A stretch of DNA of 64,000 nucleotides from positions 1-64,000 of the forward strand of contig SVNX01000009.1 of the NCBI GenBank assembly GCA_015066665.1. The letters run 5' to 3'. Positions 20,302-62,534 of the stretch are shown here, in pieces. How positions within the stretch are numbered: position 1 is the first letter of the stretch; the number at the start of each line of letters is the position of its first letter. A program made the translations under genes and the position numbers. The DNA comes from Ruminococcus sp. (GTDB lineage Bacteria; Bacillota; Clostridia; Oscillospirales; Ruminococcaceae). Under the pieces are notes generated by a model. That model saw only the letters and a list, made by a program, of their open reading frames with translations. It made no database searches and was not told the DNA's origin.

Positions 20302-20342
20302 GGGGAAATTTTGAAAAAGAGGGGGGATCCTTGTTTTTCCGG

Positions 20343-20452
20343 GCGGCGGCGCAAGCCGCCGCGCCCCCCTCTCCCCTTCAGGGGAGAGGGGCAGGGGGTG
20401 TGGGGCCAAACCCTGCCCGAATGGGGGACAGCGTCCCCCGTGAGGGCAGGGT
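20343..20452. repeat. Three-hairpin G-tract element, copy 1
   Basis: Between divergent ung and the 20581 gene. Leading hairpin GCGGCGGC-GCAA-GCCGCCGC (20343-20362); hairpin A CCCCTCTCCCC-TTCA-GGGGAGAGGGG (20366-20391), whose G-arm continues into two more G-tracts (20394-20398, 20402-20405); hairpin B with outer stem ACCCTGCCC/GGGCAGGGT (20110-series positions 20410-20418 and 20444-20452) around an inner hairpin GGGGGAC-AGC-GTCCCCC. Same plan as 47531-47650 and 62062-62180. Confidence 0.75.
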
Positions 20453-20506
20453 CGATGCGGGAGCCTGCCGCAATGTGTACATCTTCTGAAAAATCAGGTC
20501 ATCCAC

Positions 20507-47222: not shown

Positions 47223-47253
47223 AAAGCCGTTCCTTTTGAGGAACGGCTTTTTT
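47223..47253 (+). terminator. Terminator of the aroE-fumarase operon
   Basis: 11-bp stem AAAGCCGTTCC/GGAACGGCTTT with a 6-nt loop, then TTTTTT. Confidence 0.93.
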
Positions 47254-47330
47254 GCTTGATTGTGGGGGAGCGTAGTTCTGTCGAAACCTCCATGGAATTG
47301 GAGCAGCGGTATGCTTTTGCAGAACCCGAG

Positions 47331-47526
47331 GGGATCTGAGGGACGGCGAAGCGTTGTCCCCATCAAGCCAAGGGATCTGGGGGACGGCGAAACGTTGTCC
47401 CCATCAAGCTAAGGGATCTGGGGGACGGCGAAACGTTGTCCCCATCAAGCCAAGGGGTCTGGGGGACGGCGAAGCGTTGTCCCCATCAAGCCAAGGGGGC
47501 TGGGGGACGGCGAAGCTCGTCCCCCA
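47331..47526. repeat. 41-bp tandem repeat array (4 full units plus partial)
   Basis: Units start at 47331, 47372, 47413, 47454 and (partial) 47495, exactly 41 bp apart. Each holds a hairpin GGGGAC-ggcgaa(g/a)cgtt-GTCCCC and a CATCAAGC(C/T)AAGGG joint. Four units differ at only a few positions; the fifth has a shortened loop but keeps pairing (GGGGGACG/CGTCCCCC, 47502-47525). No start-codon-led conserved frame; intergenic. Confidence 0.92.
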
Positions 47527-47530
47527 GTGG

Positions 47531-47650
47531 GTGCCGGGCCGAAGGCCCGGCACCACGCCCCCCTTCCCCCTGTGGGGGAAGGGGGGATGGGGGGGATGGG
47601 GGCTAAGCCTTGTCCAATGGCGATGCAGCGCATCGGCTGCGGACAAGGCC
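47531..47650. repeat. Three-hairpin G-tract element, copy 2
   Basis: Leading hairpin GTGCCGGGCC-GAA-GGCCCGGCAC (47531-47553); hairpin A C6-TT-C5/G5-AA-G6 (47558-47586) continuing into G7 (47589-47595) and G5 (47598-47602); hairpin B outer stem GCCTTGTCC/GGACAAGGC (47607-47615, 47641-47649) around CGATGC-AGC-GCATCG (47621-47635). It ends 6 nt from the stop of the minus gene at 47656. Confidence 0.82.
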
Positions 47651-47655
47651 GCACC

Positions 47656-54930: not shown

Positions 54931-55232
54931 AGAGCATCCCATTCGGGATGCTCTCAGTCTGTCGAAAAAGTCCCGTCCAGCCACTGCACCTGAACGGCGC
55001 AGGGCTGGACTCGTATTTTTAGTTTAGTTGCGCCTTCGGCGCATATAGGGGGCTGTGCCCCCTATAACCCTCAATAAATAGCCAAAAAGCACTCTGCAAG
55101 AGGGCGGGTTGAGGGTGCGGCAGCACCCTCCCTCTTTCCCCCTCCCCTTTGGGGAGGGGGTAGGGGGTGGGGCAAAATTAAGCGAAATCATACTTTTTTG
55201 ACAAGCTGAGAGCATCCCATTCGGGATGCTCT
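54931..55232. repeat. 302-nt fold-back element with 41-nt inverted ends
   Basis: Left arm 54931-54971 and right arm 55192-55232 are inverted copies with only a few mismatches; each arm contains the hairpin AGAGCATCCC-ATTC-GGGATGCTCT and the end block GTC(G/A)AAAAAGT. Between them lie five hairpins: GTCCAGCC/GGCTGGAC (54975-55010), TGCGCC-TTC-GGCGCA (55029-55043), TATAGGGGGC-TGT-GCCCCCTATA (55044-55066), GAGGGTGC-GGCA-GCACCCTC (55111-55130), and CCCCCTCCCC-TTT-GGGGAGGGGG (55138-55160) running into G-tracts. No open frame of note. Likely a MITE-like or structured-RNA element; the right arm also acts as a terminator (TTTTTTT from 55232). Confidence 0.8.
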
Positions 55233-61281: not shown

Positions 61282-61319
61282 CATCCCCCTTTCCGATGAT
61301 GGAGAGGGGGATGTTTTTT
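61282..61319 (+). terminator. Terminator of the 57904-61274 operon
   Basis: 13-bp stem CATCCCCCTTTCC/GGAGAGGGGGATG (one G-U) with GATGAT loop, then TTTTTT. Confidence 0.93.
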
Positions 61320-61448
61320 GGAGAAATAGGGGCCAAATGGATTTCAGATGTATGACGGCAAAGGGCTATGCCGTGCCGATGTGCACAAGTAGAGCTTCCG
61401 GCTCCACAGCAACGGCGTTCAGATGTGCATGCTGCCCATGATGCGGCG

Positions 61449-62020
61449 TATGCCCGCACGGCAGGGCTAAGATGTATGCCCGTACGGCAGGGCGTGATGT
61501 ATGCCCATACGGCGGGGCGTGATGCTTGCCCATACGGCGGAGCGTGATGCTTTCCCATACGGCGGGGCGTGATGCTTGCCCATACGGCGGGGCTGAGATG
61601 CATCCCCGTACGGCGGGGCGTGATGTATGCCCATACGGCAAGGCAAGATGCATCCCCGCACGGCGGGGCGTGATGCTTGCCCATATGGCAGGGCGTGATG
61701 CATGCCCATATGGCGGGGCTAAGACGCTTGCCCATACGGCGGGGCTGAGACGCATGCCCGTACGGCGGGGCGTGATGTATGCCCATACGGCGGGGCGTGA
61801 TGTATGCCCGTCGGCGGGGCGTGATGCTTACCCATACGGCGGGGCGTGATGTATGCCCATACGGCGGGGTGTGATGCTTGCCCGTCGGCGGGGCTGGGAT
61901 GTATGCCCATACAGCGGGCGTGATGCTTGCCCATACGGCGGGGCTGAGACGCATGCCCATATGGCGGGGCTGAGACGCTTGCCCATACGGCGGGGGCGTG
62001 ATGCTTGCCCGCATAGCGGG
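61449..62020. repeat. Tandem array of about 23 units of 24-26 bp
   Basis: Consensus (T/C)(A/T)TGCCCATACGGCGGGGCGTGATG, 25 bp, with scattered changes: CATACGG against CGTACGG, CGCACGG or CATATGG; units of 24 bp (at about 61802, 61875) and of 26 bp (GGGCTGAGACG variants). Unit length is not a multiple of three, yet the minus strand lacks stops in all three frames, so long open frames there are a by-product of the repeat. Intergenic, between a terminator and copy 3 of the hairpin element. No spacers. Confidence 0.92.
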
Positions 62021-62028
62021 GGTTCAAA

Positions 62029-62052
62029 GGGGGCGAGCGAAGCGTTGCCCCC
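62029..62052. repeat. Hairpin linking the 25-bp array to the three-hairpin element
   Basis: GGGGGC/GCCCCC stem around GAGCGAAGCGTT. The loop core GCGAAGCGTT is the same as in the 41-bp units at 47331-47526, while the stem differs (GGGGAC/GTCCCC there). Confidence 0.65.
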
Positions 62053-62061
62053 TTGGCGGGG

Positions 62062-62180
62062 GCGGGGGCGCAGCCCCCGCCTTAACTCCCCCCTTCCCCC
62101 TGCGGGGGAAGGGGGGCTGGGGGGGATGGGGGCCAAGCCTTGCCCAATGCTGATGCAGCGCATCGGCTGCGGGCAAGGCC
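62062..62180. repeat. Three-hairpin G-tract element, copy 3
   Basis: Leading hairpin GCGGGGGC-GCA-GCCCCCGC (62062-62080); hairpin A C6-TT-C5/G5-AA-G6 (62088-62116) continuing into G7 (62119-62125) and G5 (62128-62132); hairpin B outer stem GCCTTGCCC/GGGCAAGGC (62137-62145, 62171-62179) around GATGC-AGC-GCATC. Compared with copy 2, one outer-stem pair is T-A there and C-G here. It ends 10 nt from the mazF stop. Confidence 0.82.
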
Positions 62181-62189
62181 GACGTCTCC

Positions 62190-62534
62190 CTACTGCAGCC
62201 CGAAACTGATCGACAACGCCTGATCCACCCGATTCATCGCCGAATGATCCAGCGTCCCCATCCTGTCCTTGAGCCGCTTTTTATCAATGGTACGGATCTG
62301 TTCCAGCAAAACAATGCTGTCCTTCTGCAAGCCGCAGGATGCCGCTTCCAGAGAAATATGCGTCGGCAGCTTCGCCTTATCCATGCGGCTTGTGATGGCC
62401 GCCGCAATCACTGTCGGACTGTGGCGGTTGCCCACATCATTCTGCACGATAAGTACCGGCCGGATGCCGCCTTGCTCGGAACCGACAACGGGACTCAGAT
62501 CCGCATAATAGATTTCACCTCGTTTAACTGACAT
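62190..62534 (-). CDS. mazF: MazF/PemK-type endoribonuclease toxin
   Basis: 114 residues from the ATG at 62534 (AAAGGAGTGTTCTT); the upstream extension in the open frame is unlikely. SH3-like barrel with [21 protein letters not shown] (substrate loop), RPVLIVQND (catalytic Arg), TVIAAAITS (catalytic Thr/Ser) and [13 protein letters not shown]. It cleaves mRNA at short sites. Length and motifs match the Gram-positive EndoA group. No antitoxin frame was found upstream (62535-62732) or downstream, so it is orphan in this window. Confidence 0.93.

Follow-up and report, generated by a model that had tools for sequence, protein, structure and literature searches.

Two intergenic regions of a Ruminococcus genome appear to be put together from the same parts, and the question is whether a single mechanism assembled them and which one. 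Both lie in the 64,000-nt window analysed here, which is C38:1-64000 of a 2.03-Mb, 77%-complete genome in 40 contigs. A sequence-only reading of the window had attributed the repeated assembly between convergent genes to one mechanism, perhaps a convergent-transcription barrier or a mobile insertion unit. The shared order that this reading reported, despite unlike array units, is confirmed by direct inspection of the sequence: both modules consist of a terminator, a tandem array, three hairpins (H1, H2 and H3), a G-rich linker and a fourth hairpin, H4 (Table 1). The stop codon of a minus-strand gene follows 8 nt past H4 in the 62-kb copy and 4 nt past it in the 47-kb copy, and the stem of the terminator that precedes the 62-kb array could also serve the minus gene. 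The folding energies are far below those of dinucleotide shuffles (z of -5.42 and -7.28; none of 200 shuffles reached so low a value in either case). The best sequence-conserved part in the subfamily of the 62-kb copy is H1, for which most copies of the subfamily show the consensus GGGGGCGAGCGNAGCG[T/A]TGCCCCC; the stem of H2 varies by compensation and its loop is mostly 3 nt long, H3 pairs C runs with G runs, and the linker repeats the G runs of H3. Together, the 3' arm of H3 and the linker hold four G runs in a G-quadruplex-like motif and might form a quadruplex; four such runs end 94 of the 110 core matches of at least 38 bits, which is no proof of a quadruplex because the core model itself selects for G runs. 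Two more copies in the window, at 20 and 55 kb, were missing from the sequence-only reading.

Table 1. Features of the repeat family and its surroundings in the window (kb labels refer to the copies discussed in the text).
Feature	Position	Strand	Remarks
Family copy at 20 kb	20312-20454	+	array and H1 absent, H4 strong at 62.5 bits; flanking genes divergent
Fumarase-gene terminator preceding the 47-kb copy	about 47226-47254	+	
Tandem array, 47 kb	47331-47524	+	41-bp unit, 4.8 copies, H1-like hairpin units; overlaps core H1
H1-H2-H3-linker core, 47 kb	47499-47601	+	core model match
H4, 47 kb	47603-47651	+	H4 model match
Duplicated terminator hairpin, left copy	54931-54954	+	24 bp
MITE, IS1182-type ends (CAGTCTGTCGAAAAA ... 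TTTTTTGACAAGCTG)	54955-55208	+	weak core match, 39.5 bits, at 55091-55175
Duplicated terminator hairpin, right copy	55209-55232	+	24 bp
Intrinsic terminator of the upstream plus-strand gene	about 61282-61320	+	sequence reading
Tandem array, 62 kb	61450-62010	+	25-bp unit with small hairpin (GCCC..GGGC), 21.4 copies, higher-order period 126
H1 hairpin, 62 kb (GGGGGCGAGCGAAGCGTTGCCCCC)	62029-62052	+	with GCGAAGCGTT motif
H2 hairpin, 62 kb	62061-62081	+	
H3 hairpin, 62 kb	62088-62116	+	5' arm C-rich, 3' arm G-rich
G-rich linker, 62 kb	62117-62133	+	
H4, 62 kb	62133-62181	+	outer stem with covariation, internal loop, inner stem, loop of 3 nt; forms the defined right end
PemK/MazF-family gene beside the 62-kb copy	62190-62534	-	

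The 62-kb element, used as a BLAST query, detected 81 pieces in the genome, and a model of the H1-H3 core (R2) yielded 135 matches at E ≤ 0.01, overlaps of tandem copies included, which form 63 clusters. Given this dispersal, the module is not a product of chance. An H4 model (R1) produced 37 matches in the genome. At E ≤ 0.001 there are 35, of which 32 lie directly beside a core match of the same strand; because 15 of the 35 had been chosen beside a core for training the model, the unbiased adjacency is 17 of 20. The H1-H3 consensus of 20 copies contains 27 pairs, 6 with changes on both sides. For H4 (15 copies), 15 of 17 pairs changed on both sides (0 of 500 shuffles), 95.3% of the cells are paired compared to 74.7% in the shuffles, and the covariation score is 0.63 compared to 0.22 for shuffled alignments and at most 0.17 with slid partners. 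The internal loop between the two H4 helices is alike in most copies. In 31 distinct H4 sequences, the mispairs on the strand that reads from array to H4 comprise 15 G.T, 3 A.C and 13 others (p = 0.0075 for G.T vs A.C), in a count of related and thus non-independent copies with the register set by Watson-Crick pairs alone; when G.T pairs help to set the register, the numbers are 20 and 4. This excess is a hint of selection acting on a single folded strand; a purely parasitic repeat would not need such selection. Along with the strong covariation of H4 and the similarity of the internal loop and loops in many copies, it is compatible with a selected regulatory or structural RNA, that is, a 3'-UTR or 5'-leader whose fold is maintained by the host and which was copied to many genes. 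Such an origin seems quite unlikely to us, given that covariation can also occur in mobile hairpin repeats and that the Pfam-matched genes flanking the window copies (fumarase, MazF-like, UDG, prokaryotic RING) have no common function. A known Rfam family was rejected, which also counts against this explanation: in the window, only tRNA reached the gathering score, and all 8 matches with E ≤ 1 at the element stayed below it.

The context of the copies bears on the proposed link with convergent genes. Intergenic gaps were derived with a dicodon-model gene caller rather than a standard annotator (367 gaps of any length and 259 of at least 20 bp in the stretches analysed). Here 34 of the 35 H4 copies (one is outside the stretches analysed) fall into 30 gaps, 21 tandem, 5 convergent and 4 divergent; the other core matches occupy 54 gaps (38 tandem, 9 convergent and 7 divergent). 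Compared to element-free gaps of at least 20 bp, 25 of 175 of which are convergent, the H4 gaps show no excess of convergence (Fisher p = 0.78), whereas compared to element-free gaps of at least 100 bp (5 of 102 convergent), some enrichment is seen (p = 0.047); for all core-bearing gaps, the respective values are 0.71 and 0.013. The first comparison is more trustworthy because the insertion itself lengthens the gap, so a preference for gaps between convergent genes, for which the sequence-only reading had proposed a test, is not supported. The gene nearest to H4, one per gap, is approached from its stop codon in 16 gaps and from its start in 14, a count that leaves aside four further H4 copies in two gaps, the extra members of tandem trios; this mixed orientation also argues against a selected RNA. 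The stop-to-H4 distance in the 16 stop-facing gaps varies from 2 to 204 nt and is at most 10 nt in 9 of them. By eye, the gene's own terminator, with its T run, is retained between the stop and H4 in 6 of the 16 stop-facing copies, so replacement of terminators is not general; no own terminator is seen in this position in the 47- and 62-kb copies.

A transcription barrier between convergent genes, in which the hairpin cluster and the array stop both polymerases, is consistent with the location of the 47- and 62-kb modules, both between convergent genes, and with the proximity of the H4 end to the opposing stop codon (at most 10 nt in the 9 gaps noted above). Moreover, hairpin clusters near stop codons have been described as effective terminators that do not need poly A/U trails (PMC8355165). 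Nevertheless, we consider a barrier very unlikely. Convergence is rejected as the rule: 25 of the 30 H4 gaps are non-convergent, including the 4 divergent ones, and H4 faces the start of a gene of the same direction in 14; convergence is not enriched against the gaps of at least 20 bp, the value for those of at least 100 bp notwithstanding; no tandem array lies within 600 bp of 13 of the 35 copies; and parasitic repeats such as BOX and RUP are also over-represented in convergent gaps, which has been ascribed to weaker selection there (PMC3049150). Of the two readings that had been proposed, the barrier is not supported, with 5 of 30 gaps convergent, and the mobile unit fits, the repeat being dispersed, nearly species-confined among the congeners searched and delimited by a defined H4 end.

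The sequence-only reading had named instances without arrays as evidence that would refute it, and such instances exist. When arrays were defined with Tandem Repeats Finder (period of at least 15, at least 2.5 copies, no more than 600 bp from a copy), 16 of the 35 H4 copies have one on the H1 side, upstream of H1 (in one case 405 bp away), 2 have only a downstream array that belongs, in both cases, to the neighbouring copy, 4 are within a larger tandem block and 13 are array-less. Of the 51 core matches of at least 60 bits, whatever their H4 state, 26 have no array on either side, 19 have one only upstream and 5 only downstream, and 1 has arrays on both sides. The arrays are mostly outside the core, and their units are unlike between loci, with the core and H4 constant; 8 of the 16 upstream arrays overlap the core by 10-36 nt at its H1 end, and the left end of the element is undefined because of the arrays. 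The unit of the 62-kb array is a 25-bp hairpin and not a copy of H1. Polar growth of this array was rejected given the lack of a similarity gradient towards H1 (unit identity of 0.83 far from H1, 0.82 in the middle and 0.80 beside it). Since array units are shared by neighbouring copies in C7 and C10, an array may also move together with its copy.

Among the congeners searched, the H4 form is nearly confined to a single genome. At E ≤ 1e-6, H4 was detected in 2 of 38 genus genomes, with 33 copies in its own genome and 1 in another (G023), a distribution that also speaks against a host-maintained RNA; up to 150 candidates were scored per genome with a model built from own-genome copies, so that absence from congeners may be overstated. 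A 9.7-kb query across the C7 region has matches in 36 of the 38 genomes, its own counted. No core matches were obtained in 16 genomes of other genera, and 3 of 294 other genomes of the order contained some, with 13 candidates scored per genome, which makes absence weak evidence. Weaker core matches were observed beyond the genus in three genomes from other genera of the family (G286, G196 and G145), and accordingly the core may be older than the genus. A 32-bp H1 pattern had no match in the named genome collection, which perhaps does not include the present genome.

Within the genome, the spread of the H4 family is likely to be recent and local. Among 28 H4 copies (one kept per kb, from 34), pairs on the same contig (40) have a mean identity of 0.749 and pairs on different contigs one of 0.688, a difference reached by 0 of 10000 label permutations, and for 13 of the 28 the closest relative is on the same contig, compared to a mean of 3.0 and a maximum of 11 in 2000 permutations. 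This clustering raises the possibility that the copies spread by recombination only, that is, by segmental duplication and gene conversion among neighbours without transposition. Besides the likeness of copies on the same contig, the C9 copies at 10.9 and 15.3 kb, which share about 40 bp beyond H4 and so favour duplication at that place, and the tandem trios at C7:46 kb and C9:41 kb fit such a scenario. As the whole explanation, however, it appears somewhat unlikely: the flanks of the C7 copies at 21.8, 24.5 and 25.4 kb, which are of one subfamily, differ directly after the H4 base when compared by eye, as do those of the C38 copies at 47, 62 and 70 kb, likewise of one subfamily, which is what insertion with a defined end gives and favours transposition for these copies. 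Local segmental duplication could still explain part of the same-contig clustering.

The mazF gene beside the 62-kb copy allows comparison with relatives at the same place. A search with the MazF-family protein gave matches in 34 of the 38 genus genomes, its own counted. Among the mazF loci of 29 relatives, a motif located the stop codon in 21 and missed it in 8, and in 17 of the 21 a terminator-like hairpin starts within 45 nt of it; in the present genome, there is no terminator-like hairpin at this position, and H4 starts within 10 nt of the stop. The H4 model detects a full H4 only in the present genome among the 30 mazF loci (one relative has a partial match of 20 bases, some 0.65 kb away from the gene), so the insertion is lineage-specific at that place. 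The sequence after mazF differs between the genomes inspected, and the terminator of the present mazF was probably lost or displaced.

A second form of the repeat family has different ends. The hairpin that is doubled around the window MITE is the one behind an aminotransferase-like gene. In the congener G008, a related core lies within near-identical inserts with imperfect ends (CAGTCTGTCGAAAAA / CAGCTTGTAGAAAAA), and the end of this MITE type occurs 39 times in the present genome with at most one mismatch, compared to once for the reversed control. Six named metagenome-assembled genomes contain, in 61 stretches, an exact 23-base string from the sister MITE; two are Oscillospiraceae (roe-deer caecum and sheep rectum), one is a Ruminococcus sp., two are labelled only 'bacterium' and one is labelled Chlamydiae. 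The IS1182-family transposase profile NF033551 has no match in the present 77%-complete genome and matches in 13 of the 38 genus genomes, 2 of them over the curated cut-off. Two insertion sequences are complete by their ends, with the transposase matches located between CAGCCTGTC[GA]AAAAA-type ends: L131 in G021 (1473 bp, above the cut-off, open transposase frame, 33-bp flanking hairpin repeats) and L133 in G011 (1532 bp, frame interrupted by stops, 31-bp flanking hairpin repeats). The window MITE and its kin have ends like those of these insertion sequences of the same lineage. Direct repeats of at least 12 bp flank 26 of 63 left-end rows, which correspond to 18 elements (13 in the present genome, 3 in G008 and the 2 insertion sequences: L085-L103, L110, L061, L062, L077, L131 and L133); in all 26 rows, the repeats are 20-36 bp long and fold with at least 60% of bases paired (67% at the lowest), and most are terminator stem-loops; of random stretches matched in length and locus, 240 of 2600 fold as a hairpin. 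No repeat was detected in the other 37 rows, several of which end at contig ends, and at least one visible duplication, in L071, was missed because of the fixed boundary. Long duplications are given for the IS1182 family in IS catalogues. IS1182-type ends were absent from the 130 nt upstream and the 170 nt downstream of all 32 H4-bearing cores, a search in which ends past long arrays would be missed, and no duplicated terminator was seen by eye at the 47- and 62-kb H4 copies.

Several other elements were noticed during this survey. A hairpin insert of about 55-60 bp (CTCCCCACGGGGTGGGGAG...GAGGGGACGG) is nested inside H2 or the G-run linker of several copies, namely the MITE copies L081, L083, L090, L098, L101, L102, L105 and L107, and also L022; it is a putative further hairpin element with hairpins as its insertion sites. 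The 67 bp that follow the MITE end, considered as a lead to a transposase, gave a different nested MITE instead and was rejected. Another MITE, of about 165 bp with the ends GTGTTGACACTAA...TTAGTGTCAACAC, is represented by L111-L129 and occurs at C3:36920, C8:50382, C11:14960 and other places of the present genome; a 67-base probe of it matches this genome and the congeners G002, G005 and G008. A third type of right end (CAATCTTTGC...AACTTTCCTAAAGTT) takes the place of H4 or the IS1182 ends in the core copies at C10:25634-25740 and C7:10178-10733. Finally, an element on C6 (L104, from position 606 onward) begins with a MITE-like end and contains what is presumably a remnant of the zinc-ribbon region of a large serine recombinase.

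Taken together, these observations make it likely that each module represents a single insertion of an interspersed repeat of about 155 bp, non-coding and composed of several hairpins (H1-H2-H3-G-rich linker-H4), that multiplied recently and spread mostly over short distances, with putative mobilisation in trans, a preference for terminators and secondary arrays. A mobile unit fits the data because the repeat is dispersed and, among the congeners searched, nearly species-confined, has a defined H4 end with unlike flanks and was not found at the orthologous place in relatives. The repeated assembly of the same parts is then most likely the outcome of a dispersed mobile repeat and its by-products and not of a convergent-gene device. 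Under this scenario, the repeat would be mobilised in trans and would favour terminator hairpins at the 3' ends of genes, sometimes replacing them, such that its hairpin cluster would then stand at the former position of the terminator; insertion of the H4 form may thus be directed by terminators. The arrays would be secondary local expansions of sequence at or just upstream of H1, arising through hairpin-prone slippage or through unequal recombination; this would account for locus-specific units within a constant order of parts. A broader version, which looks unlikely at present, would posit a modular class of mobile hairpins in which one core swaps its ends (IS1182-type, covarying H4 or the short third end), spreads locally via an intermediate that is folded and strand-specific, duplicates the terminators of genes or takes their place at the gene ends and gives rise, from its H1 end, to minisatellites that differ by locus. 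What seemed an odd pair of intergenic modules becomes a repeat family that is open to testing, would reshape gene 3' ends and is linked to minisatellites.

Several known systems share features with this family. Among the literature matches listed, nothing relevant on such repeats in Ruminococcus or Oscillospira relatives was present. The BOX element of Streptococcus pneumoniae, with the structure boxA-boxB(n)-boxC and a length of 67-637 bp, is thought to be non-autonomous and mobile (PMC3049150) and is likewise a composite, folded interspersed repeat with a variable-number tandem module for which convergent gaps have been discussed; compared by description, the present repeat differs in that the array is outside, at one end, its units differ by locus, the element is very G+C-rich and a separate covarying hairpin forms its end. 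The BrickBuilt MITE of Porphyromonas gingivalis is also an intergenic repeat joined with a minisatellite; unlike the H4 form, it is described with a 23-nt unit, a leader, a tail and small inverted-repeat ends (PMC4596501), whereas here the units are unlike between loci and such ends were not found. REP/BIME elements, which are linked to RAYT (Y1) transposases, are high-copy extragenic palindromes as well (PMC2817692); unlike that system, the present 77%-complete genome has no match to the Y1 profile PF01797, which was found in 5 of 14 control genomes, and membership in the REP/RAYT class was therefore rejected.

The closest parallel for the MITEs is the IS1182 family, given the shared hairpin and terminator targets (PMC4923244, PMC5678879) and the likeness of the MITE ends to those of IS1182-type elements of relatives. 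IS1272 and TnSha1 of this family insert at hairpins, several of which are terminators, and delete part of them without target duplication (PMC4923244). Palindromic targets for some IS1182 members were reported in a review cited by PMC5678879, which itself proposes replacement of the stem-loop and, in the other branch (6b, legend of its Fig. 13), an attack at the 5' feet of the stem-loops that results in a duplicated stem-loop. As far as these two sources describe it, the hairpin is deleted or replaced by IS1272 and not doubled (PMC4923244, PMC5678879), and none of the matches listed in a search of titles and abstracts, with most subscription journals outside its scope, concerned duplication of a whole terminator by an IS1182 element. 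In contrast, the 18 IS1182-type elements described here sit between two copies of the hairpin, as in branch 6b (PMC5678879), and thereby bear on the reading of cruciforms by the IS1182 family.
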